From Salinispira pacifica (GTDB taxonomy: Bacteria > Spirochaetota > Spirochaetia > DSM-27196 > Salinispiraceae): a stretch of DNA of 64,000 nt. Positions 18,364-60,984 of the stretch are shown here, piece by piece. Position numbers and translations under genes: made by a program. The notes under the pieces were generated by a model. That model saw nothing but the letters and a program-made list of their open reading frames with translations, was not told where the DNA came from and searched no databases. The stretch's first letter is position 1; each line of letters opens with the position of its first letter. The stretch is from the NCBI RefSeq assembly GCF_000507245.1, contig NC_023035.1:1341501-1405500 (forward strand), read 5' to 3'.

Positions 18364-18606
18364 TCAGCCGAACAGACTTTCTGTCAGCTGTTCAACCTCG
18401 TCATATTTCAGGGGCTGAATATTCATTTCCCTGGATAACACCAGTAAATGGCGCTTCAGTACGTCGGCATCCCTGGGAAGATTGTTCTGCATATATCCGT
18501 AGGCAATCTCAACAATCTCTTCAGGGCTTCGGGTCTGGTCTCCTTTGGGAGCGGCGGAAGAAATCTCTTCCCAGAACTGTTGGCATAAATCGTGTAGTTT
18601 CGGCAT
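18364..18606 (-). CDS. Small hypothetical protein, probably leaderless
   Basis: This 80-residue soluble protein (MPKLHDLCQQFWEEI to LTESLFG) is helical and slightly acidic. I do not recognise it. The start at 18606 is favoured because TATACT on the minus strand (18613-18618) ends six bases before this ATG, so transcription should begin at or next to the start codon. No Shine-Dalgarno is present. It is divergent from the D-2-hydroxyacid dehydrogenase gene, whose own TATACT has the same spacing. Confidence 0.65.
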   Translation of the reverse strand: MPKLHDLCQQFWEEISSAAPKGDQTRSPEEIVEIAYGYMQNNLPRDADVLKRHLLVLSREMNIQPLKYDEVEQLTESLFG

Positions 18607-18683
18607 ACGCCCAGTATAGCACAACTGCGGAACGGGAAAAGGATTTTCTGGACTCTTTTTCCATCCGTTCTTATACTCATCAC

Positions 18684-19682
18684 ATGAAGATATGCATATT
18701 GGACGGACATACCATGAATCCCGGCGATCTGAGCTGGGATCCGGTTGCCAAACTGGGCGACCTCCATATATATCCCCGGATGAAGGCTGCGGATGTGGTG
18801 ACCCGTGCCGCAGACGCTGAAGTGATTCTCACCAATAAGGTGCCCATCGGACGGGATATGATGGATTTGCTTACCCGGCTGAAATATATCGGAGTACTGG
18901 CCACCGGGTATAACACTGTTGACAGCGCGTATGCCCATCAGCTTGGATTACCGGTGACCAATATCCCCGGATATTCCCGTGATTCGGTTGCACAGATGGT
19001 GTTTGCATATATTCTTCACGTAACCAATATGGTCTGGGACTACAACAATTCGGTGAAAAACGGAGACTGGGAAACATCGGCTGATTTCTCCTACATCCGT
19101 ACTGCTCCGGTTGAACTCAGCGGGAAAACCCTGGGAATTATAGGCTACGGTGACATCGGCAGGAAGCTGGGGGAAATGGCCCGGGCTTTCGGCATGGAGG
19201 TGCTCATTTCCCGGAAGCAGGACGGGACGCTCCCCGGGGGATCCCAGGATGATATTAATCTGGGCCGGGTTCATGCGGTGCCCATGGAAGAGCTTTTCGA
19301 GCGCAGCAGTTTCATTTCCCTTCATACTCCCCTGAACTCCCATACCAGAGAGATGGTGGATTCGTCCCTTCTGAGCAGGATCAAACCGGGAACCGTACTG
19401 CTGAATACTTCAAGGGGCGGGGTAATTCACGAGGAGTCAGTCCTTGATGCCCTGGATGACGGAAAGCTGATCTGCTACGCCGCTGACGTGTATGACCAGG
19501 AGCCGCCTAAACCTGCCTCAGCACTGATCCATCATCCCAAGACGCTGTTCACGCCCCATATTGCCTGGGCCAGCCGTGATGCCAGGGAACGGGCGATCCG
19601 GATAGCCGCAGACAATATTCAGGCCTGGATGGACGGAAAGCCGGTGAATGTGGTGAACGACGTGCAGCGGGGCAGGGTGTAG
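18684..19682 (+). CDS. D-2-hydroxyacid dehydrogenase (glycerate dehydrogenase-like)
   Basis: The 332-residue protein has the family layout: an N-terminal substrate domain, the Rossmann motif in GIIGYGDIGRKLGEMA (about 153-168), and catalytic Arg in LLNTSRGG, Glu in DVYDQEPP and His in TPHIAWAS. It would reduce a 2-keto acid such as hydroxypyruvate with NAD(P)H. The close ILDG-TMNPGDLSW start resembles glycerate dehydrogenase (HprA). TATACT at 18672-18677 ends six bases before the ATG, and there is no Shine-Dalgarno, so the mRNA is probably leaderless. Confidence 0.88.
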   Translation: MKICILDGHTMNPGDLSWDPVAKLGDLHIYPRMKAADVVTRAADAEVILTNKVPIGRDMMDLLTRLKYIGVLATGYNTVDSAYAHQLGLPVTNIPGYSRDSVAQMVFAYILHVTNMVWDYNNSVKNGDWETSADFSYIRTAPVELSGKTLGIIGYGDIGRKLGEMARAFGMEVLISRKQDGTLPGGSQDDINLGRVHAVPMEELFERSSFISLHTPLNSHTREMVDSSLLSRIKPGTVLLNTSRGGVIHEESVLDALDDGKLICYAADVYDQEPPKPASALIHHPKTLFTPHIAWASRDARERAIRIAADNIQAWMDGKPVNVVNDVQRGRV

Positions 19683-19717: not shown

Positions 19718-20422
19718 TTACGCCGGGGAATAGCAGAGATAGTCACAAAACTCCCTGGGGAGAACTATTTCTTCCATAGACTGGACGTTGTCCTGCCTCT
19801 GAAAATCTACCAGTAAACCATCTTCCTTCCTGCTTTTCACGGTGAATCTGTCGCCTAAATGGATTTCATGCTCGTGAATGTATTTCAGCAGCCCTTCCTT
19901 CTCTTCGCCCTCTTCGGTGATGCGTGAAAATATCCCGGATTCCCCTTCCTCTGCCCCGGAAATTTGGGGATAAGCAAGGATTTTTTCTTCGTCATCTGTT
20001 CCGGGGATGGGGTTGCCGTGGGGACAGGTCTGGGGTTTGCCCAGGGCTTTGAACATCCTTTCCTCAAAAATGTCAGAGATATTGTTTTGCAGTCGCTTCG
20101 CTTCTATATCAATTTCATCCCAGGTGAATCCAAGATGATCCATGAGAAAATGTTCAAGCAGATAATGACGGCGGAGCATTTTTACGGCAAACCGTGAACC
20201 CCTTTCGGTCATTTGTATGTGGGAATATCTTTCCTGGGTGATCAGATCCAGTTTTTTCAATCTGTTGACCGCCTGGCTCACAGCAGGTCTGCTTACATCC
20301 AGCCAGTCAGCCAGTTTCGAGTTCGATACATGACCGTGATCTCGGTTGATCAGGTAAATGGCAGAAAGGTAATCGCTTGCTGCGGGAAACGTCTGTAAAA
20401 TATCTTCAAATTCCATATCCAT
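19718..20422 (-). CDS. DtxR/MntR-family metal-dependent transcriptional regulator
   Basis: The 234-residue protein has an N-terminal winged helix (SNSKLADWLDVSRPAVSQAVNRLKKLDLI), then the dimerisation/metal domain with RHYLLEHFLMDHLGFTWDEID, EAKRLQNNISD and CPHGNPIPG, and a C-terminal FeoA/SH3-like domain. It should repress iron or manganese uptake genes when metal is bound. The start is ATG 20422 or 20416; a TATATT lies six bases before 20422, with no Shine-Dalgarno, which points to a leaderless message. A longer upstream frame has no support. No metal transporter adjoins it. Confidence 0.9.
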   Translation of the reverse strand: MDMEFEDILQTFPAASDYLSAIYLINRDHGHVSNSKLADWLDVSRPAVSQAVNRLKKLDLITQERYSHIQMTERGSRFAVKMLRRHYLLEHFLMDHLGFTWDEIDIEAKRLQNNISDIFEERMFKALGKPQTCPHGNPIPGTDDEEKILAYPQISGAEEGESGIFSRITEEGEEKEGLLKYIHEHEIHLGDRFTVKSRKEDGLLVDFQRQDNVQSMEEIVLPREFCDYLCYSPA

Positions 20423-20620
20423 TTTCAAAATATATACGGAAATTGCTTTTATGCACAGCGTTTTCACCTGAATCTGCCAAATTCCAGTGTTTCCATACCC
20501 TGTGTGACAGTAGCAGCTTCCTTCCAGATTCCCGCTGTGTTGGCGCAGAAGGAATGCTGGGCTATAATACAAGAAACGGATCGCCTTACGCGCTCCCGAT
20601 ACATCTTCCCGGAGGTTTTC

Positions 20621-21115
20621 ATGAATTGGGCACATAATAACAGGCTGAGATTTCTTCCGCTCCTGCTGTTGATGCTGGGAGTTCTGTCTGTTTCCCCCTC
20701 CCTGCATGCATCAGGGACAAGCGAAGAGTCGGATGAAAACCTTAGAATCTCCGTACCCCAGGGGCCGGAGATACCCAGGCTTCCAGCCAGGCTTCATAAT
20801 CAGGATGATTTTCGACTGGTTCTGAATGCCTTTGATGAATTAATACGTCAGACTGACCCGATCATCGAATCGGTGGTTTTCAATGGAGTGGATGCCAACA
20901 CCGTTCCCCTGGAAAGGCTCAGGGAAGCGACTCAGTGGTGGAAAGAGTATCTCTCGGATCTGTCGATACAGGCTGAAAATCCACGGCTGGGCGCCGGAGA
21001 TATTGACACCTTTTTATCCGATCTCATCAGTAAGGACCGTCAGCTCCAGGAGCAGCTGGACAGACTCAATCAGGTAATTGAATTGGAAAACCGGGCTGCG
21101 GAAGATTCTGAGTGA
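20621..21115 (+). CDS. Exported protein of unknown function
   Basis: The 164-residue protein has a signal peptide (NNRLRFLPLLLLMLGVLSVSPSLHAS). The mature part is mostly alpha-helical, with a proline-rich PQGPEIPRLPARL start and a C-terminal coiled-coil-like stretch (KDRQLQEQLDRLNQVIELENR). GGAGG seven bases before the ATG fixes the start at 20621. It ends one base before the convergent sensor gene. No family is recognised. Confidence 0.7.
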   Translation: MNWAHNNRLRFLPLLLLMLGVLSVSPSLHASGTSEESDENLRISVPQGPEIPRLPARLHNQDDFRLVLNAFDELIRQTDPIIESVVFNGVDANTVPLERLREATQWWKEYLSDLSIQAENPRLGAGDIDTFLSDLISKDRQLQEQLDRLNQVIELENRAAEDSE

Positions 21116-21116
21116 T

Positions 21117-22307
21117 TCAACGGTAAATAACCAGCAGGTAATCCTCTTGATCCTGATTCCCGTCCTGTCTATTTCGGCTGATACTGTGATCCCTGCTGAA
21201 CCTGGTGATGGGAGTAATATAGCATTCAAAGTGCTCTGCGGTATCCGTGTAGAGGGTAAAACGGCCTCTGCTCAGCCGCCCGCTGTCCCGGGCCTCCTCA
21301 AAGATTCTGTTCAGTTCAGAACTTCTCACATAGCTGAGCATGCTTGAGCCCGTGAGGCGGCGTGTGCTTGCATCCAGAAGTGTATCTTCGCGGAAATCAG
21401 AATCATGAAGCTCCGATTCACGTTTCATGAGAAAACGTGCAGCCGGAATATTGTGCTGAATAATAATTTGATGACGGTCCAATACCATCACCACATCCTT
21501 CTGAAGATTAAACACTCTCTGGAGCTCTTCTCTCTGACGGTTCAGGTCTGTTATTTGATGTTTCAGTGCCTTGGCCATCTTTTTCATCGCCCTTGCAATG
21601 CTTGCAAACTCATAGGGCCGGAGAATATAGAGATCCAGCTCCCATTCTCCACGTTCAATATCTTCCGCGGCTGATAGGATCTTGGACAAGGGTTTCTGAA
21701 TCGCCCGTAATTGGGTGATTATCACGATGATGGATAAGCTGATAATTATACCGCTGATAATAGCGATTACCCGGTAGCTGTTGGCCAATAGCTCTTCCGT
21801 CTGGGTGAGTCTGGAGGCGGTCCTTATAACCAGCTGCTCACCGGAAAACTCCGACGGGGGAGCCAGCGGCCGGGCGAAATACATCAGGTCCGCATTGAGG
21901 GTGGAGCTGTATCTTGTGGTATGATCTTCCCGTCCAAGCAACGCGGAGCTGATCTCCGGCCTGAGGGCGTGATTATCCATCTCTGAGGGTTGAGCCCAGT
22001 TATCGGCGATAACCGTACCGTCCTCCTGAATTACGGTGATCCGTATATCCGCCTGATCTGCAAGTTTGCTGGTATAATCCTGGGCCCAGTCCGGAGAGTT
22101 CCCCTCTCTGTCCTGGAATTCAGTGAGAAATGCGGCAGAGAAAAATTGAGCAGAGGCTTCAAGAATTCTCCGGGTTTCTCTGAGGGTATTTGAGCGTATG
22201 ACCCCTGTGAGAAAAATACTGATTAGTACCATGCTCAGCAGGGTAATAAGAGGTAGAATTATAAAACTTCTTCGAAGGCCCTGGGTCCGGCCGAATCCGT
22301 ACAACAT
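21117..22307 (-). CDS. Membrane sensor with HAMP and PAS domains but no kinase core
   Basis: The 396-residue protein has a membrane segment (about 14-37), a periplasmic Cache/PhoR-like domain, a second membrane segment (about 178-203), a HAMP linker, a short coiled coil (LKHQITDLNRQREELQRV) and a PAS domain (about VFNLQKDVVMVLDRHQ to the end). It stops where a PhoR-type kinase would continue into its histidine phosphotransfer helix. No HisKA or ATPase domain follows. It may be an orphan sensor or the remnant of a kinase. Its promoter has a TACAGT nine bases before the ATG and no Shine-Dalgarno. Confidence 0.75.
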   Translation of the reverse strand: MLYGFGRTQGLRRSFIILPLITLLSMVLISIFLTGVIRSNTLRETRRILEASAQFFSAAFLTEFQDREGNSPDWAQDYTSKLADQADIRITVIQEDGTVIADNWAQPSEMDNHALRPEISSALLGREDHTTRYSSTLNADLMYFARPLAPPSEFSGEQLVIRTASRLTQTEELLANSYRVIAIISGIIISLSIIVIITQLRAIQKPLSKILSAAEDIERGEWELDLYILRPYEFASIARAMKKMAKALKHQITDLNRQREELQRVFNLQKDVVMVLDRHQIIIQHNIPAARFLMKRESELHDSDFREDTLLDASTRRLTGSSMLSYVRSSELNRIFEEARDSGRLSRGRFTLYTDTAEHFECYITPITRFSRDHSISRNRQDGNQDQEDYLLVIYR

Positions 22308-22403
22308 TCGGAAAGAACTGTATCAGCGGCTGATGTGAGTGTCTATAACTTTATGCAGAATCTATATACAGATATTCAATCTTCATACAGATGTATGCAG
22401 GGG

Positions 22404-24018: not shown

Positions 24019-24927
24019 TTATGTAATCTCCGCCTCTTCTGTATCGCCGCCCTGGGAATCGCCACCCTGGGCATTGTAGCTCTGGGAATCGCCGTTCTCC
24101 CCTCCATCCTCACGGGGCGGATCACCGGTTCTTTCCTCGATCATTCTGATCATGGGAAGAAGCAAATCTGTCAGTGCCGGGGAGAACTGTAGTTCCGCAG
24201 TCAGCAGTTTGACGCCTTCTTGGTGGGTGTCCTGGATTGTTCCGGTTATGGCGGCCTGTACAAGAAAAGAACCCTGGGACCATACAACTTCCAGTGAGAG
24301 CTGTTCAATACCGTTATTCAGGGCAGGGGCGAGACTTTTGGATATATAGAGACTGCACGTGGTAAGCCCGATCTCCTTTACCAGACATCTGTATCGACCG
24401 CTTCCGGGAATTATCAGGTGAAGGGCGGAACTGATTTCTGCCTGCTGGAGCAGCCTTGTTGGGATCCCTGTTCTACTCTCTTTCCTAGCCTCCCATGCCT
24501 GTTCAAGTTCTTCATAGAGCTGGAACAGGTCAATGAGAATAGTTTTGAAATCATCTGAGGGAGACAGGATCTTCAGGTCTACCAAAACTGCGTTTCCTGC
24601 TCCGTTTCCGCTGTGTATCTGTTTGATGAGTATTTTCAGAAATAATCCGATTTCATGGGAAAATCTGGGTGATACAAAACGCATTCGGAGCTGCTGAGGA
24701 CTCTCCTTCATTGATTCCAATAACGCAATTTCCCGTTCGCTCATGCTTAAAAGAATTTTTCCCGATGTAAATCCGATTTTTACCGGTACGGCATACAGAA
24801 AAAAATCCTTGAGCTTGATGAAGGTATGCCGTTTTTTCAGACCCATCCTGTGAATCAGGTAACTGTCGAGTTTCAATTCGCTAGTACCGTAAGCAGCCTC
24901 GTATTTCCGTATAAATGCCTGATCCAT
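24019..24927 (-). CDS. Unrecognised spirochaetal protein, possibly PilZ-like
   Basis: This 302-residue soluble protein has no signal peptide. Its N-terminal 110 residues (IHRMGLKKRHTFIKLKDFFLYAVPVKIGF onward) and the central beta-rich part (YRCLVKEIGLTTCSLYISKS) resemble the split beta-barrel arrangement of PilZ-type proteins, but I do not see a clear RxxxR motif, so this is a guess. The tail is a low-complexity Gly-Asp-Ser-Gln stretch encoded by short imperfect DNA repeats (about 24048-24105). ATG 24927 has TATACT six bases upstream and no Shine-Dalgarno; a GTG two codons earlier is the alternative. Confidence 0.55.
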   Translation of the reverse strand: MDQAFIRKYEAAYGTSELKLDSYLIHRMGLKKRHTFIKLKDFFLYAVPVKIGFTSGKILLSMSEREIALLESMKESPQQLRMRFVSPRFSHEIGLFLKILIKQIHSGNGAGNAVLVDLKILSPSDDFKTILIDLFQLYEELEQAWEARKESRTGIPTRLLQQAEISSALHLIIPGSGRYRCLVKEIGLTTCSLYISKSLAPALNNGIEQLSLEVVWSQGSFLVQAAITGTIQDTHQEGVKLLTAELQFSPALTDLLLPMIRMIEERTGDPPREDGGENGDSQSYNAQGGDSQGGDTEEAEIT

Positions 24928-25027
24928 AATCACAGTATATCAGATTCAGGTAGGGATGCCATAATTTATCGGATACAGTTTGCTTTTTCATGGCGCGGAT
25001 TTGTATATTAATCCTGAGGTAAATACT

Positions 25028-25747: not shown

Positions 25748-25766
25748 TATGAAGCCGGGAGAGCCT

Positions 25767-25796
25767 GCCCCGGGATTGTTCCCGGGGCTTTTTTTT
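25767..25796 (+). terminator. Rho-independent terminator of msrA, overlapping the next promoter
   Basis: GCCCCGGG at 25767-25774 pairs with CCCGGGGC at 25781-25788 across the loop ATTGTT, followed by eight T. The loop and 3' arm also supply the -35 box (TTGTTC, 25776-25781) of the downstream promoter. Confidence 0.9.
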
Positions 25797-25804
25797 GGTA
25801 TAAG
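25776..25804 (+). promoter_or_regulatory. Promoter of the 169-residue hypothetical gene
   Basis: TTGTTC at 25776-25781 and TATAAG at 25799-25804 are 17 bases apart. The ATG at 25810 is five bases after the -10 box, so the transcript should start at the ATG or within a base or two of it. Confidence 0.55.
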
Positions 25805-25809
25805 CAGAT

Positions 25810-26319
25810 ATGACCAGCAGCGATACGGGGCACAGCTCACGACAAATCCTTGAAAAATACTACGGAAACGATCTGCATATTATCGGCAGTGCCGAACTTG
25901 CCGTGGTGAAGAACGGAAGACCGGCTCAGACCCGCTGGGGTGTATGCTTCATTTCCGGGTCGCCGGATTCACCGGTCCTGGTTCATTTTGCCTTCGATAA
26001 GCAGGACTGGGTGGAATCCCTCACCGGAAACAGAAGGGAGCCCGTGGATACTTCGTTGGAAATTCCTCTTTCAAGTGCCCGGTTGCTGTATGCGGAAAAA
26101 CCGGGATTCCTGAAGCGCCTTCTGGGCTCGGATGTGGGAATGGTTGAACTTGCCTCTGACCAGGCAAAGACCGTCCGATTTCGTTCTGGAAAAGGCGAAA
26201 CTCTGATGGTGGAAGCTGAGCGCTTCGGGTTTAACGTGGAATCCGTCAAGGCGTTTACCCGTCATCTTCTTGAGTATCTTCCTTCCGGGAATTCTCCTCT
26301 CCACATGCCGAAGGAATAA
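25810..26319 (+). CDS. Hypothetical soluble protein
   Basis: The protein has 169 residues with no signal peptide. The N-terminal half contains ELAVVKNGRPAQTRWGVCFISGSPDSPVLVHFAF, a beta-rich stretch; the C-terminal half ends in a helical KAFTRHLLEYLPSG. I do not recognise the family. It has no Shine-Dalgarno; the promoter ends five bases before the start. Its 3' end overlaps the convergent uspA-type gene by 65 bases. Confidence 0.65.
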   Translation: MTSSDTGHSSRQILEKYYGNDLHIIGSAELAVVKNGRPAQTRWGVCFISGSPDSPVLVHFAFDKQDWVESLTGNRREPVDTSLEIPLSSARLLYAEKPGFLKRLLGSDVGMVELASDQAKTVRFRSGKGETLMVEAERFGFNVESVKAFTRHLLEYLPSGNSPLHMPKE

Positions 26320-30530: not shown

Positions 30531-31578
30531 GATCACCCGAAGATTTCACCGGGCTCAATCCCGGAATTCCCAGCCGTCCCACGATCAGCTGGAGTGCGTG
30601 GTAGACGATCAGGAGGGTAATTCCTCCGTCCACAGCTGCTCCCATGGCTTTCAGCTGGTGAAGCAGGGGAAGGCCCATGGCCATGGTCTTTTGGGTTCCC
30701 AGAAAAAACAGGGCGGTTTGCTCATCTTCCGGGAGCCTGCGTCCCGCTGTGAGAGTGATCCGTGCAATAGAAGCATAGAGCAGGGCTGCCAGAATGAATG
30801 ATACTCCCAGGCTCATTCCTCCTGTACTCTTCATGGGAGAGAGAAGAACAATCAGCAGTATGATCAGCTGTGAGATAGCCCCTCCGGGCAGCTTCCGTCT
30901 CGGCGATTTTCCGTAGGACATAATCAGACGGAGCAGTGTTCCGCCGATCAGGGGAACTCCCGCATTGATCAGCAGGGAGAGAACCATGCCTGCAGCTTCC
31001 GTTGGGGAAAACCCGGCGCTCCCTAATTGCAGCAGAAGAGAAACCAGCAGGGGAGAAAGAAGGATTCCCAGAATGTTTGCCAGTACAGCATTGATCAATG
31101 CCAGTTCTGAGGCCCCTCCCTCCAGCCGGGTGTATACCGTTGAACTTGATACGGTGGTGGGCAGGACGCTGAGCAGGAGAACCGCGGAGGGGAGTCCCAG
31201 GGCGGCAAGTCCGGGGGCCAGCGATTCCAGGGATGTGAGAATCAGCGCCGCAGGTATGCCGCACAGCAGGGGAAAGATGAAAAAAATTGTAAGTTGGCTC
31301 CTGAGGTGAAAATCCGACCGTTTCAGACTACGGATTAGCACCGAAACATCCATGCCCAATCCCTGGATAAAAAACAGGACGGCCACCAGAAGATTTCCCA
31401 GGGCTGAGATTTCAACCACGCTGTCCAGGAGATCTTTGGGGTGCCAATTGGGAGACATTTGATGTATAATAAGTACAGTCAGCAGAGCTATTATGAACCA
31501 GCTGCTGCGTAAACGCCCTGCGATACCCGGACCTCCGGAGTTTTCTCCGGAATGCTTTATCCTGGAAGATTGCGGCAT
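30523..31578 (-). CDS. SBF-like (YfeH-type) bile acid:sodium symporter family transporter
   Basis: The 351-residue protein has about ten membrane helices. It carries family-like crossover signatures: LPSAVLLLSVLPTTVSSSTVYTRLEGG in the first half and ALFFLGTQKTMAMGLPLL in the second, as in the SBF_like (DUF4137) group that includes E. coli YfeH. Members probably move organic anions with sodium, but the substrate is unknown. AAAGGA before the ATG at 31578 supports the start; a longer frame begins at 31626. It is divergent from the large spirochaetal gene. Confidence 0.82.
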   Translation of the reverse strand: MPQSSRIKHSGENSGGPGIAGRLRSSWFIIALLTVLIIHQMSPNWHPKDLLDSVVEISALGNLLVAVLFFIQGLGMDVSVLIRSLKRSDFHLRSQLTIFFIFPLLCGIPAALILTSLESLAPGLAALGLPSAVLLLSVLPTTVSSSTVYTRLEGGASELALINAVLANILGILLSPLLVSLLLQLGSAGFSPTEAAGMVLSLLINAGVPLIGGTLLRLIMSYGKSPRRKLPGGAISQLIILLIVLLSPMKSTGGMSLGVSFILAALLYASIARITLTAGRRLPEDEQTALFFLGTQKTMAMGLPLLHQLKAMGAAVDGGITLLIVYHALQLIVGRLGIPGLSPVKSSGDQK

Positions 31579-34808: not shown

Positions 34809-35782
34809 TACCACTCTTCCCGGCTCAGCAGACTTCCGTCAGCTCCTGCACAGGCTGCCATGCGGCCTGAGTGGGTTGAACCGATCACCGGAACAATTCC
34901 CGCCGGATGACGCATGAGCCAGGACAGCACTATTGCCTCCGGAGAGCTGTCTTTTTCTGCAGCCAGAGCAGACACGTAATCCCGCAGCCGTTGTTCGGAT
35001 TCTGAAAGATCTGCGGCACCGCCGCTGTATCTTCCCCGGAACAGGGGCGACCATGCCTGGAGCTGGATGTCTTCGCTCATGCAGTATTCCAGGGTTCCCT
35101 GACTTCGCAGAGCCCGGTCTCCATGATTCTGGTTAATCAGCACTCCTGCCTCGATCAGGTTCCGGTGCCCGAGGCTGATCTCCATCTGATTCACCGTAAT
35201 TTCAATTTCTCCCAGTTTTTTCAGAGCCTGGATTTGGGATGCGGAGTGGTTGCTCACTCCCACATAGTGTATGAGACCTTCGTTCTGAAGTTTGCGAAGT
35301 TCTCTCCCCAGAGCCGGTATGTCGGCCAGAGGATCAGGGCGGTGAAGCAGAAACAGATCCAGGTAACCGCAGTTCAACCTTTCAAGGATACCCTCAACCG
35401 AGGATCTGATGTGTTCAGGAGAGAAATCATAGCGGCCGGGGGTTCCTTCTCCGCCGTCATCGGGAAAACGGATCCCAGCCTTGCTCTGAATGATGATTGA
35501 CTCACGGAATCTGTCTGCCTGTTGTGCAAGGAACCTGCCGAAAAGCTCTTCCGATTTTCCCCGGCAGTAAATATCGGCATGATCGAATGTGGTAAACCCC
35601 AGTTCCAATGCCTTTTCAATTGTGGAAAAGCCCCGTGCAGCCTGCTCATCGGTGAGGGGTGTATCATCCCAGGATGATGCCAGGTTCATACAGCCATAGA
35701 TCAAGTTTTGGCCGCCAATGGCCTCAGAAAGCCGGTTATCCCGGCGCAGGGCGGATATATCCGCCTGATTCAATTGTTTCAT
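34769..35782 (-). CDS. Aldo/keto reductase, YdhF type
   Basis: The 337-residue protein is a TIM-barrel oxidoreductase with the catalytic tetrad: Asp in TTFDHADIYCRGKSE with Tyr, Lys in IIIQSKAGIR and His in LFLLHRPDP. The motif VGVSNHSASQIQAL and the NADP-binding PVIGSTHSGRM complete it. The architecture matches E. coli YdhF. It has no Shine-Dalgarno; TAAGCT lies six bases before the ATG, so it may be leaderless. Its 3' end overlaps the glycosyltransferase-like gene by 40 bases. Confidence 0.9.
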   Translation of the reverse strand: MKQLNQADISALRRDNRLSEAIGGQNLIYGCMNLASSWDDTPLTDEQAARGFSTIEKALELGFTTFDHADIYCRGKSEELFGRFLAQQADRFRESIIIQSKAGIRFPDDGGEGTPGRYDFSPEHIRSSVEGILERLNCGYLDLFLLHRPDPLADIPALGRELRKLQNEGLIHYVGVSNHSASQIQALKKLGEIEITVNQMEISLGHRNLIEAGVLINQNHGDRALRSQGTLEYCMSEDIQLQAWSPLFRGRYSGGAADLSESEQRLRDYVSALAAEKDSSPEAIVLSWLMRHPAGIVPVIGSTHSGRMAACAGADGSLLSREEWYQLFVLSREEPLP

Positions 35783-35833
35783 CTCTACAGCTTAGCTTGC
35801 GGGGACGGTTCATTGTCAAGTATTATTGGCTAC

Positions 35834-37336
35834 ATGGCGTATCTCTATTCATGGCTGGGGAACAGCGACATCCGTCTGATTGAAGATCCTGAGCATCCCG
35901 GTCCTCTGTGCCAGGCGCTGCTGGCAGCCAAACCCCGCAGAGCATACATTCTCAGCAATGCCGGAAGGCAGGTCACGGGAGGGTATGTGAAACACCTTAC
36001 CCGGAGGCTCAACGCCCACGGAGTCCAGAGTTCTGTCTCAGAGCTGGAGGTGGATCTTGAGGATCCCACCGATTATCGGGAAATCTATCTCATCGTGCAC
36101 AGAATTCTCCAGGAGAATCCTCCGGGAAAGTACGGACGGGTGTATCACCTCTCGCCGGGAACTCCCGCCATGGCTGCCCTGTGGATTGTATTTTCCCAAA
36201 GCAGCTTTCCGGCCCGGCTTATTCAAAGTTCCCGTGAACAGGGCATTCGGGATGTAAACCTCCCGTTCGAGCTGGAAGCCAGGAATCTCCCGGGGATTTC
36301 TTCCCTGCTTTCCCGTCTGATGGCGGAGGAGGAGCGGGGAGATTCGGCATTCAGTCATATTATTCACAGCCATGATTCCATGAAACGGCTCATTTCCCGT
36401 GCCAGAAAAGCCTCCGCATTCGATATTCCTGTATTGGTGATGGGGGAGTCGGGTACCGGCAAAGAACTGATTTCCAGGGCCCTGCATAACAGCGGGCCAA
36501 GAAAGGACGCTCCCTTCGTGAGTATCAACTGTGGTGCAATTCCCCGGGAGCTCATGGAATCGGAGCTCTTCGGTCATGTCCGGGGAGCATTCACCGGTGC
36601 CGAGGGGGAACATCTGGGGGCATTCCGTCAGGCTCAGGGCGGAAGTCTGTTTCTCGATGAGATAGGCGAGCTTCCTCCCGATCTCCAGGTGAAGCTGCTG
36701 CGTGTTTTGCAGGACGGGGAGGTGAAGCCCCTGGGAGCAGCCAAGCCGGTGGCTACCGATGTGCGGGTTATCGCCGCAACGAACCGGTATCTTCCCGGGG
36801 AAATTCATGGAGGACGGTTCAGGGCTGATCTATTTTACCGTCTGGCTGTGGCAATTCTCCAGATACCGCCGTTACGGGAGCGACGGGAGGATATCCGGAT
36901 TATCACTGAACATCTTCTGAACGAAATCAATGACGAATTCCGGAGAGTTGATCCCCAATGGGAATTGCGCACTCTTCATGCAGATGCTCTTGAGTTTATT
37001 GATACATATTCCTGGCCCGGCAATATCCGACAGCTGTCCAATACACTGAAGCAGGCCGCATTGTGGAGTGAGACACACATTATATCCAGAGAAGAAATTA
37101 TGGATCTTCTCAGCTTCACTGCCGGTTCAGGGGAACAGAGGGAATCCCGGGAGTATTCCCGGAAGGCAGACCTTCGGGATGAACTCGATGAAATTGCAAA
37201 GACGCGGATCATGGAGAGTCTGGAACGCAATCGCTGGCAGATTGGAAACACCGCCAGGGATCTGGGATTCAGCAATCATCAGACACTGAGCAACTGGATG
37301 AAGCGTCTGAAAATATCCTATAATGAGAACGCATGA
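35834..37336 (+). CDS. Sigma-54-dependent activator with a CARF-like N-terminal domain
   Basis: The 500-residue protein has three parts. Residues 1-150 form a Rossmann-like sensor with AYILSNAGRQVTGGYVKHL and the motif HLSPGTPAMAALW (105-117), typical of CARF-type domains that bind cyclic or linear oligonucleotides. Residues about 176-400 are the AAA+ core: GESGTGKE (204-211), GAFTGA (251-256), LFLDEIGELPP. The C-terminus is a Fis-type HTH (WQIGNTARDLGFSNHQTLSNWM). RtcR has the same domain order, but its HTH differs and no rtcA or rtcB is nearby. ATG 35834 follows TATTAT by seven bases. The next gene overlaps its stop by four bases. Confidence 0.8.
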   Translation: MAYLYSWLGNSDIRLIEDPEHPGPLCQALLAAKPRRAYILSNAGRQVTGGYVKHLTRRLNAHGVQSSVSELEVDLEDPTDYREIYLIVHRILQENPPGKYGRVYHLSPGTPAMAALWIVFSQSSFPARLIQSSREQGIRDVNLPFELEARNLPGISSLLSRLMAEEERGDSAFSHIIHSHDSMKRLISRARKASAFDIPVLVMGESGTGKELISRALHNSGPRKDAPFVSINCGAIPRELMESELFGHVRGAFTGAEGEHLGAFRQAQGGSLFLDEIGELPPDLQVKLLRVLQDGEVKPLGAAKPVATDVRVIAATNRYLPGEIHGGRFRADLFYRLAVAILQIPPLRERREDIRIITEHLLNEINDEFRRVDPQWELRTLHADALEFIDTYSWPGNIRQLSNTLKQAALWSETHIISREEIMDLLSFTAGSGEQRESREYSRKADLRDELDEIAKTRIMESLERNRWQIGNTARDLGFSNHQTLSNWMKRLKISYNENA

Positions 37337-38466: not shown

Positions 38467-41331
38467 TTACAGATCCTCATGAAGTATATGCTGTTCGCAG
38501 TAGGTCTGTACTTCCTCGAAACTCTGGAAAAGCGTGTGAAGCATGGAGATCAGTTCATATCCGTCGGATGAATCGGCCGACCCGTTTTCCGGGAGATTCA
38601 TCCGGGTTTTAAGAACATCTTCCAATTCACCCGCCTGCTGGGCCAGGCTGCCTGCGAAAAGGAGCTGAGCGCCGCTGCGGAGGGAATGGATGAGACGGTG
38701 ACTTTCCTTCCAGTTTTTCTCCTCCAGAAGATCCTGAAGCTTTTGAAGGCTTTGTTCGCTTTCCGCAAGAAATCCTTCCAGGAGTACAAATGCCTGATGA
38801 CTGTCTCCGTCCAGGGTATCCACCACCTTCCTCATCTCAAGAGGACTGCTCTGTCTGTTTCCGTTGGAAGTCGTCGGGGGGGTAGAGGTTCTTCCCGTTT
38901 CAAGGCAGCTTTGTTTGATAATTGAAATCAGTTCTTCCCGGGTGAATGGTTTGAGAAGGGCGGCGTGGAAGGGGCCGTTGCCTTCATTCAGATGTTCCAC
39001 CAGTTCCACATCTGCGGAAATTGCAATAAAACAGGATTGTTTCAGGGACTGTCGCTGACCCAGTCGTTCTGCCAGTTCCAGACCGTCAACCTCCGGAAGG
39101 TGAAGATCCAGGAGAATAATATCATAGGGTGTATTGGCGGCGGTGGTGAGAATCTCACTTCCGCTGCTCAGGCTGTCCAGAGCGCAGCCGCTGTCGTTCA
39201 AGTAATAACTGATAAGTTCCCGGCTTACCGGATAATCCTCGCCCAGAAGAACCCGTTTCCCTTCCAGAAAATTCACAGCATATTGATTTTCCCGAGAAAC
39301 AGCCTTTTCCTCGTCGGGTTTCGCCGCTGTCTGAACCTCCTTCAGTGGAATGGAGAAGAAAAACTCGCTTCCTTCCCCCTCTTTACTTGTCACCTCCAGG
39401 GTTCCCCCCATCCGTTCAACGATTTGCCGGGCTATGCTCAAGCCGAGTCCTGTTCCTGTAAAACGGCGGGCAACCGCCTGGTCACCCCGGTTATAGGCTT
39501 GGAAAATTTCTTCCTGCTTTTGCGCAGGGATTCCAATTCCCCGGTCCCGAACCGAAAAGCGGTATAGGTCATTGCCGCTGTGGAGTATGGAGACGTGGAT
39601 CTCTCCCTTCTGACAGTACTTTACCGCATTGCTGAGAAGGTTTGACAGCACCTGATACAGTCTGAATCTGTCACTGTACACGTAGGCGGGAACCGACGAA
39701 TCCATCTTCAAAAATATTCTCGGTTTCAACGAGTGGTCGTTCACCTGAAAACTTTCAACCAGTTCCCTGCTCATCTCCTTGAGGGATACCGGTTCCTCAT
39801 TCAGTTCCAGCCCCCGGGTCTCCATCTTCTCCTGATCCAGAATCTGGTTGATGAGATGCAGCAGTTTGCCCGCCTCTCCGGACATAATATTCAGTTTGGA
39901 CCGGGCCGAAGGGGAGGTTATGCTCTGCTTCAGAATATCGCTGTAGCCCATAAGAGCATTCAAAGGAGTGCGCATTTCGTGACTCACCGCAGCAAGAACC
40001 GCAGTTCTTGCTTCCAGAGCCTGCTGGAGCTCCCTGGTTTTCTGATCAACCATTTCCTCCATTGAATTATGATATACCCGGAGACTGTCGCTCATATCCT
40101 TGATTTGTACGGTAATATCACTGAATTCCCTGCTGATAAAATTGCTGCGGATCTTCGTGGGATAGGAACCTGAGGCGATAATCCTCAGCGCCTCCTGAAT
40201 CTCTCTCAACGGGGCGGTAATTCCCCTGGAAAGCAGATATCCCAAAATGCTGAAAACCACGCCGATCACCCCTCCGAGAATAATAATACTGCGACGGTTC
40301 TGAATGAGCGTGCCCAGAATTTTATCCTCGCTCATGAACATGCCGATGGTCCATGACCAGCCGTCGGCGGACATATTTCTGAACACGCCGTAATAATTGG
40401 CATTACCATGGTTGAAGCGCAGGCGCTGTATCCCGCTGGCCGCATCCGGCGGTCCGTCTTCAGAGGATCCGTTGGCGTTTTGGGAAACGCTGTACCGTTC
40501 CAGTGCGGTTGCCACCGGGGTGTCCTTGTAGTCCTGAATGGTGCTGAGTCTGCTACCCGGGGGCTCCACATTTTCGGTGATATCTCCGGATATGGCCAGG
40601 AAACGGCGGTTCTCATCGATAATAAACAGTGAGCTGTCGGACCTTCGTGCGGTTTCCCCTACAAAGTCACTGAGATTCTGAAGGGTAAGATCAACGCCGA
40701 TAACCCCCTGAAGTGTTCCTTCATCGCTATACACCGCCCGGGCTGTTGTGATTCCCGGAGACTGACTGGTGAAAAACAGATAGGGATCGGTCCAAATCTC
40801 ACGGGACGATTCTACGCTCATCCGGTACCACGGGCGAGTTCTGGGATCGTAGGTGTCGGCAACTCCTGATCTGTCCTGCTCAACCTGAAGATCTGAGTCA
40901 TAGTGGATGTATCTGGCGCTTCCGGTATTGCGGATAATTTTGGTGAAAAGCCCCCGGGGGTTCTGGTCATTGTACCTGCTGGACATAATAAACTGTCCAT
41001 CGGGTGTGGCATAGAAAATTGCGGAAATCTGGGAGTTGATGTTCATGAGGCTGTAAAAGCTCTCGTTCAGCTCCTGAAAATTCAGGCTGTTCAGTACACG
41101 GTTTTCTGCCAGCTGACGCAGAAGCTGCACGGCATCACTTGCGGTGACCAGATGATCCTTCGTTTGCTGGTAAATAAAATCCGATGACTGCTGCATGATC
41201 TCATCGGCATGATTCACAAAGGTTCTTTGGGATGAAAAGCTGTAGACTCCCAGTGTCAGGGAGACGGTTATAAGGATGAGGATCAGGAAGCTTGCTGGAA
41301 ACAGCGTGTGAAAGGATATCTTAGACCACAT
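38467..41331 (-). CDS. Hybrid sensor histidine kinase (Cache-HAMP-HisKA-HATPase-REC-HPt)
   Basis: The 954-residue membrane protein has a helix at about 8-32, a large dCache sensor (about 40-330, DPRTRPWYRMSVESSREIWTDPY), a second helix, HAMP, HisKA with HEMRTPLNAL (His about 451), the ATPase with DRGIGIP and GTGLGLS, a receiver with LDLHLPEVDG (Asp about 743), and an HPt domain with HSLRSGA (His about 881). It would autophosphorylate and relay phosphate internally to an unlinked regulator. TACAAT lies six bases before the ATG with no Shine-Dalgarno, so it is probably leaderless. Confidence 0.95.
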   Translation of the reverse strand: MWSKISFHTLFPASFLILILITVSLTLGVYSFSSQRTFVNHADEIMQQSSDFIYQQTKDHLVTASDAVQLLRQLAENRVLNSLNFQELNESFYSLMNINSQISAIFYATPDGQFIMSSRYNDQNPRGLFTKIIRNTGSARYIHYDSDLQVEQDRSGVADTYDPRTRPWYRMSVESSREIWTDPYLFFTSQSPGITTARAVYSDEGTLQGVIGVDLTLQNLSDFVGETARRSDSSLFIIDENRRFLAISGDITENVEPPGSRLSTIQDYKDTPVATALERYSVSQNANGSSEDGPPDAASGIQRLRFNHGNANYYGVFRNMSADGWSWTIGMFMSEDKILGTLIQNRRSIIILGGVIGVVFSILGYLLSRGITAPLREIQEALRIIASGSYPTKIRSNFISREFSDITVQIKDMSDSLRVYHNSMEEMVDQKTRELQQALEARTAVLAAVSHEMRTPLNALMGYSDILKQSITSPSARSKLNIMSGEAGKLLHLINQILDQEKMETRGLELNEEPVSLKEMSRELVESFQVNDHSLKPRIFLKMDSSVPAYVYSDRFRLYQVLSNLLSNAVKYCQKGEIHVSILHSGNDLYRFSVRDRGIGIPAQKQEEIFQAYNRGDQAVARRFTGTGLGLSIARQIVERMGGTLEVTSKEGEGSEFFFSIPLKEVQTAAKPDEEKAVSRENQYAVNFLEGKRVLLGEDYPVSRELISYYLNDSGCALDSLSSGSEILTTAANTPYDIILLDLHLPEVDGLELAERLGQRQSLKQSCFIAISADVELVEHLNEGNGPFHAALLKPFTREELISIIKQSCLETGRTSTPPTTSNGNRQSSPLEMRKVVDTLDGDSHQAFVLLEGFLAESEQSLQKLQDLLEEKNWKESHRLIHSLRSGAQLLFAGSLAQQAGELEDVLKTRMNLPENGSADSSDGYELISMLHTLFQSFEEVQTYCEQHILHEDL

Positions 41332-41378
41332 GGAATCATTGTACCAGATATTCTCCCGCTGTGCTTGAACTCCTGAGC

Positions 41379-60681: not shown

Positions 60682-60918
60682 TCATGCAGCGGCAAACATC
60701 CGGTAGCCCAGAAATGCCCCCAACACCGACCCCGGATTTATCCTGATGTATGCCGATATAATATACATGTCGAAGCCGATGGGGCCCAGACTCAGATCGA
60801 AGGGGAATCCTGACAGTGCTGCCAGCTTTTCCAGAATCCCCCAGCTCAGAGTTCCAAGAACAACTCCCAGCAGGAGAAGCCGAAGCAGGTGAGGGCGGGT
60901 CTTTGCGCTTAATTTCAT
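60682..60918 (-). CDS. Small membrane protein, DUF4321-like
   Basis: The 78-residue protein has two membrane segments (about 9-32 and 52-77: LLRLLLLGVVLGTLSWGILEKL and SAYIRINPGSVLGAFLGYRMF). The pattern of a short N-terminus and a Gly-rich second helix matches the DUF4321 family, found upstream of maf in other bacteria. TACAAT lies ten bases before the ATG with no Shine-Dalgarno, so the leader is only a few bases. It is the first gene of the maf transcript. Confidence 0.68.
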   Translation of the reverse strand: MKLSAKTRPHLLRLLLLGVVLGTLSWGILEKLAALSGFPFDLSLGPIGFDMYIISAYIRINPGSVLGAFLGYRMFAAA

Positions 60919-60984
60919 AGTGAGTGGAATTGTACACAGAAGCCGTGGAGGCTGCAATCCGGGGCAACCGCCTGCAAAACGCTA

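Follow-up and report, generated by a model that had tools for sequence, protein, structure and literature searches.

Gene starts in the window

The DNA analysed here, called the window throughout, is a stretch of 64,000 nucleotides from the chromosome of Salinispira pacifica, occupying positions 1341501-1405500 of a single contig. At 19718-20422 on its reverse strand lies a gene for a DtxR/TroR-type iron-dependent repressor of 234 aa, whose ATG stands a few bases after a hexamer of the TANNNT type. An earlier note had cited ten starts with this kind of layout and had drawn from them a rule, TANNNT-N6-ATG, for leaderless genes. Checked against the sequence, all ten starts have the hexamers and gaps that were claimed (Table 1), except that TATAAG at 25810, with its gap of 5, ends in G and falls outside the TANNNT word. 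Five further starts, absent from that note, were called by the start model described below and close the table. S. pacifica L21-RPul-D2 is a spirochaete of a hypersaline mat, with a chromosome of 3,782,798 bp and 51.86% G+C (PMC4511686); the window has 51.7% G+C.

Table 1. Gene starts with a candidate promoter box close to the ATG in the window. P is the posterior of a leaderless start in the start model fitted on 703 genes.
Start	Strand	Gene or product	Site	Layout	P
20422	-	DtxR/TroR-type repressor	20420-20434 (box 20429-20434)	TATATT-N6-ATG	0.96
18606	-	80-aa ORF (18364-18606), divergent from 18684	18604-18618	TATACT-N6-ATG	1.00
18684	+	D-2-hydroxyacid dehydrogenase	18672-18686	TATACT-N6-ATG	1.00
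24927	-	PilZN3-like protein	24925-24939	TATACT-N6-ATG	1.00
35782	-	Aldo/keto reductase	35780-35794	TAAGCT-N6-ATG	0.39
41331	-	Hybrid histidine kinase	41329-41343	TACAAT-N6-ATG	0.98
25810	+		25799-25812	TATAAG-N5-ATG	0.88
35834	+	Sigma-54 activator	35821-35836	TATTAT-N7-ATG	0.80
233	+	193-aa protein without Pfam match	218-235	TTGACA-N18-TATCAT-N9-ATG	1.00
22307	-	sCache_like/HAMP membrane protein	22305-22322	TAGACA-N17-TACAGT-N9-ATG	0.99
31458	-		31456-31471	TATTAT-N7-ATG	0.99
60918	-		60916-60934	TTGCAG-N17-TACAAT-N10-ATG	1.00
2659	+		2646-2661	CATAAT-N7-ATG	0.98
23222	-				about 0.9
37333	+				0.88

The weakest of the cited sites is that of the aldo/keto reductase gene (35782), where TTGACA is present but at spacer 20; its posterior is 0.97 in a wider version of the start model (gaps 3-15) against 0.39 in the narrower one. 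The dehydrogenase gene (18684) carries a -35-like TGGACT at spacer 17. The product of the gene starting at 24927 matches PilZN3 with a Pfam score slightly under the cut-off. In two divergent pairs, 18606/18684 and 35782/35834, the start codons are only 77 and 51 bases apart, respectively; the promoters overlap in opposed orientation and both sides are apparently leaderless. Directly upstream of the -10 box of 25810, a strong terminator-like hairpin followed by a T run occupies positions 25765-25798. Read as its longest open frame (19718-20707), the DtxR-type gene begins at 20707, 285 bases upstream of 20422, and a gene caller picking that start would put 95 extra residues before the DNA-binding domain of the protein.

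The motif at gene starts

As a bare word, TANNNT-N6-ATG is not in excess: the 64-kb window holds 26 matches against 22.2 +/- 5.1 expected, and in the whole genome the pattern occurs 1180 times and its reverse 1178 times. Since most matches fall within genes, counting the raw word is not an appropriate test. The genome-wide excess anticipated in the earlier note is thus absent from the raw word and present once counts are conditioned on gene starts: with the window excluded, TANNNT stands at gap 6 from a candidate ATG in 49 of 612 genes, whereas gaps other than 6-10 average 15.3 (P about 6e-12). The sample behind these counts comprised 40 evenly spaced 20-kb stretches and the window, in which codon statistics alone called 732 genes, 703 of them with an internal start; the gene starts are those called in this analysis, not those of the annotation. 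Among 1392 candidate ATG starts, 57 have TANNNT at gap 6, where 9.4 would be expected from internal in-frame ATGs or 6.5 from out-of-frame ones, and 40 have it at gap 7 (13.6 or 12 expected, respectively). For the narrower word TATANT at gap 6 the count is 23 against 0 to 0.2.

We fitted, by expectation-maximisation, a start model in which every gene has one start belonging to one of three upstream types. For one class it arrived at TAtaaT and TTGACa boxes with a spacer of 17, for the other at AGGAGG. When gaps were limited to 5-10, gap 6 took a share of 37%, gap 7 of 29% and gaps 8-10 together of 31%. The six bases of the proposed rule are therefore the mode, but gaps 7, 8, 9 and 10 are used too. 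A Shine-Dalgarno core (GGAG, GAGG or AGGA between -15 and -4) precedes none of the 101 genes called leaderless and 353 of the 412 Shine-Dalgarno genes, a difference that is partly built in, since the model makes promoter and Shine-Dalgarno site compete. What the earlier note had glimpsed in one window is a genome-wide class of genes that lack a Shine-Dalgarno site and have the ATG 6-10 bases after a -10 box, and it exists alongside a Shine-Dalgarno majority.

At a posterior above 0.9, the model called 101 of 703 genes leaderless (100 after a refit); ten shuffled runs gave 6-16 calls and six shifted runs 11-21. Two-fold cross-validation gave 96 calls and 10 in decoys, and in stretches fetched later and scored with fixed parameters 55 of 387 genes were called, against 4-7 in decoys. 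About 10 in 100 leaderless calls are expected by chance. After correction for decoys, the predicted leaderless share appears to be about 13% of S. pacifica genes, roughly one in eight. In shuffled controls the posteriors of the narrower model still add up to about 59-70 out of 703, and for this reason only calls above 0.9 were counted; the 22% obtained from the summed posterior of the wider model (gaps 3-15) was not used.

Gene context and function

Gene order was not an input of the start model. A divergent upstream neighbour was found for 63 of 99 leaderless genes and for 112 of 409 Shine-Dalgarno genes (p=5e-11). Among co-directional genes, overlap with the upstream gene occurs in 0/36 leaderless and 78/297 Shine-Dalgarno cases (p=5e-5). 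Of the 175 genes that have a divergent neighbour and a confident class, 63 (36%) are leaderless. The called genes are mostly first or single genes of transcription units, as bacterial leaderless genes are. At one locus (L024:2032-2053) both members of a divergent pair were called leaderless; about 20 bases separate them, which would place the -35 of each in the coding sequence of the other.

The earlier note had also suggested that the leaderless genes form a regulatory class, rich in sensors and regulators, and the window set does hold a DtxR-type repressor, a hybrid kinase, a HAMP protein, a PilZN3-like protein and a sigma-54 activator. Across the genome this impression did not last. We considered all genes with a HATPase_c or Response_reg match above the Pfam cut-off, leaving out two Response_reg matches without a gene model and, for the joint count, the window. 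Leaderless starts were called for 15 of 102 two-component genes and 95 of 687 others (p=0.76). Genes with the histidine-kinase-type ATPase domain HATPase_c come out somewhat higher, 13/61 or 21% versus 14%, a difference that speaks for the regulatory reading but is not significant (p=0.13, or 0.18 without the window), while response-regulator genes come out lower (4/52). The test covers, among regulator families, the two-component genes. On these counts we regard a class of regulators and sensors as very improbable. Leaderless starting is not reserved for regulators and has no preference for two-component ones, and position as the first gene after a divergent neighbour predicts it better than a regulatory role. 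A kinase enrichment seen in the even sample alone (4/10, p=0.04) disappeared once all kinase and response-regulator loci were included.

The called set also includes methyltransferase, class II tRNA-synthetase, DEAD-helicase and transposase-like families. In a comparison of the 25 commonest Pfam families only, which is a glance rather than a test, the top families listed for 97 called proteins were PDDEXK_2, HATPase_c and methyltransferases, with four members each, whereas among 97 of 391 Shine-Dalgarno proteins no listed family exceeded three members. The four PDDEXK_2 proteins are transposase-like nucleases, which may bring their own promoter along.

Nature of the signal

The hexamer has a partner. 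Whether the gap is 6, 7 or 8, five-of-six matches to TTGACA peak at spacer 17, which is a -35 element at the standard distance and the mark of a true promoter. With the peak at gaps 6-7, the first T of the box lies about 12 bp before the start codon, as in bacterial leaderless genes. The peak belongs to ATG only: neither the 721 GTG nor the 470 TTG candidate starts have one for the hexamer. Mycobacterial leaderless genes use GTG starts too, and in this respect S. pacifica differs from them. As judged from the DNA, the hexamer is the -10 box of a sigma-70-type promoter.

One might instead regard the A/T-rich hexamer not as a promoter but as a translation signal on an mRNA with a leader, such as a ribosome site of non-Shine-Dalgarno or S1 type. 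Nakagawa (2017) indeed cautions against taking A/T bias at -20 to -10 as proof of a leaderless mRNA (PMC5397173), but the hexamer has a -35 partner at a 17-base spacer and a gap fixed to within a base or two, and it is absent before co-directionally overlapping genes (0/36), so that we hold this reading to be very improbable. That the cited sites are chance matches picked by eye, with no gene class behind them, is scarcely credible, for the raw counts in window and genome agree with it but the excess at gene starts survives leaving the window out and recurs in stretches that the model had not seen.

By far the most probable explanation, in our judgement, is a sigma-70-type promoter abutting the ATG and giving rise to a leaderless mRNA in about 13% of genes, mostly first genes with a divergent neighbour and without preference for two-component functions. 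The transcription start point of sigma-70 promoters usually lies 6-9 bases after the -10 box. With the box 6-7 bases before the ATG, the usual start point would therefore fall on or beside its A. In this scheme the -10 element of an ordinary housekeeping promoter would sit against the gene start, and RNA polymerase, starting 6-9 bases past the box, would begin on the A of the ATG or no more than about four bases away from it. The resulting mRNA would have no leader, or one of 1-4 bases, and no Shine-Dalgarno site. Translation would presumably be of the AUG-first, 70S type known for leaderless mRNAs. Such mRNAs prefer AUG, and the restriction to ATG fits this preference. Promoter position, -35 and spacer, the limitation to ATG, the missing Shine-Dalgarno sites, gene context and conservation are read from the DNA itself; the +1 position, the transcript ends and the leaderless translation we infer. 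It counts against this explanation that, on the strict word TTGAC-N17..19-TANNNT-N6..7-ATG, S. pacifica is among the weaker spirochaete genomes, with 18 occurrences against 8 for the reversed word and 12 at gap 12-13.

Inheritance at orthologous starts

Orthologues were taken as reciprocal best hits against stretches of two relatives, G002 (same family) and G007 (same order). In G002, the orthologues of 12 of 17 leaderless genes are themselves leaderless, versus 4 of 48 for Shine-Dalgarno genes (p=2e-6); in G007 the figures are 5/8 and 3/41 (p=0.001). These data show that the predicted start type is inherited among orthologues. The G002 orthologue of the 20422 gene (L072, 43% identity) has its start at the corresponding residue, laid out as TATAGT-N7-ATG, and of the two more distant homologues examined one (L073) has TATCTT-N9-ATG and the other (L074) no such site; a protein search with the 20422 product found no relative among the named genomes. 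For the aldo/keto reductase gene (35782), nine homologues were examined (L042-L050): the layout recurs as TACGCT-N6-ATG in G004 and G017 and as TAGACT-N6-ATG in G007, and the remaining ones have other or no usable starts. The best matches of the hybrid kinase (41331), L102 and L103 in G001 and G002, lack a comparable start, and they are probably not its orthologues.

Fitted on their own, both relatives, which belong to the order of S. pacifica, have a higher predicted share of leaderless genes, about 20% (G002, 66 of 314 with 3-6 in decoys; G007, 67 of 328 with 1-8 in decoys). In G169, a genome from another class, 29 of 296 genes were called (1-5 in decoys). Escherichia coli K-12 gave no such signal: with the parameters of S. 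pacifica 2 of 229 genes were called and 2-3 in decoys, and its own fit drifted to an A-rich motif that did not favour gaps 6-7 (11 called, 1-5 in decoys).

Comparison with known systems

Leaderless starting is already known, including in spirochaetes; what is new here is the organism, the higher share, the finding that orthologues inherit the start type and the absence of enrichment in two-component genes. Leptospira belongs to a spirochaete class other than that of S. pacifica. Likewise a spirochaete with leaderless mRNAs, Leptospira interrogans had its transcripts mapped by dRNA-seq in 2017, with 430-450 genes having a start at most 10 bases from the start codon (PMC5243855). The results presented in that paper include no promoter motif except that of sigma-54 (PMC5243855), whereas in S. 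pacifica the -10/-35 pair is seen, in the DNA. Zheng et al. (2011) predicted leaderless genes by TANNNT about 12 bp upstream, in spirochaetes for 6 of 18 genomes (PMC3160421). Motif, place and inference are the same as for the S. pacifica set; their spirochaete mean of 3.9% (1.8-6.9%; PMC3160421) is below our figure of about 13% and the about 20% of the two relatives, but the methods differ and the figures are not strictly comparable. In Deinococcus-Thermus, TANNNT a few bases before an ORF was found in 2025 to be a promoter that yields leaderless mRNA and is strengthened by a -35 (PMC12340547). The -10 placement is as in S. pacifica; in Deinococcus-Thermus it concerns about 30% of ORFs and is experimentally proven (PMC12340547). 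The mycobacterial leaderless transcriptome has the TANNNT promoter abutting the start codon as well (PMC3898074). The word leaderless does not occur in the accessible text of the 2015 genome paper of S. pacifica (PMC4511686), and among the papers covered by a literature search on leaderless genes in spirochaetes were the Leptospira study and the surveys cited here, but none on leaderless genes of Salinispira. If 13-20% of the genes of free-living spirochaetes are leaderless, gene callers based on Shine-Dalgarno sites will misplace many of their starts, and these genomes would offer an outgroup, beside Actinobacteria and Deinococcus, for understanding why lineages keep or lose leaderless starting.

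Spread among spirochaetes

Read by eye, most of 197 spirochaete genomes have more occurrences of the strict -35/-10/ATG word (gap 6-7) than of its reversed control. The control at gap 12-13 covered 40 of these 197, chosen and not random. In all 36 of the chosen genomes outside family f12 the word is commoner at gap 6-7 than at gap 12-13 (2103 vs 672, with reversed controls of 296 and 309). In the four chosen f12 genomes, picked for their low ratios, the word occurs 33 times against 62 reversed.

Leaderless starting might be an old, inherited mode of first genes in the spirochaete phylum, used here at about one third of divergent starts and in two relatives by one fifth of all genes. It would have persisted at orthologous starts despite promoter turnover and been largely lost in one small-genome family. 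We put this forward tentatively, giving it slightly less than an even chance.

Family f12, which judging from genome size alone may be Borreliaceae, has small genomes (0.9-1.8 Mb) and almost no excess of the strict word: summed by hand, its 22 genomes hold 181 occurrences and 153 of the reversed word. Most other spirochaete families are unlike it in having an excess of the promoter-ATG word.
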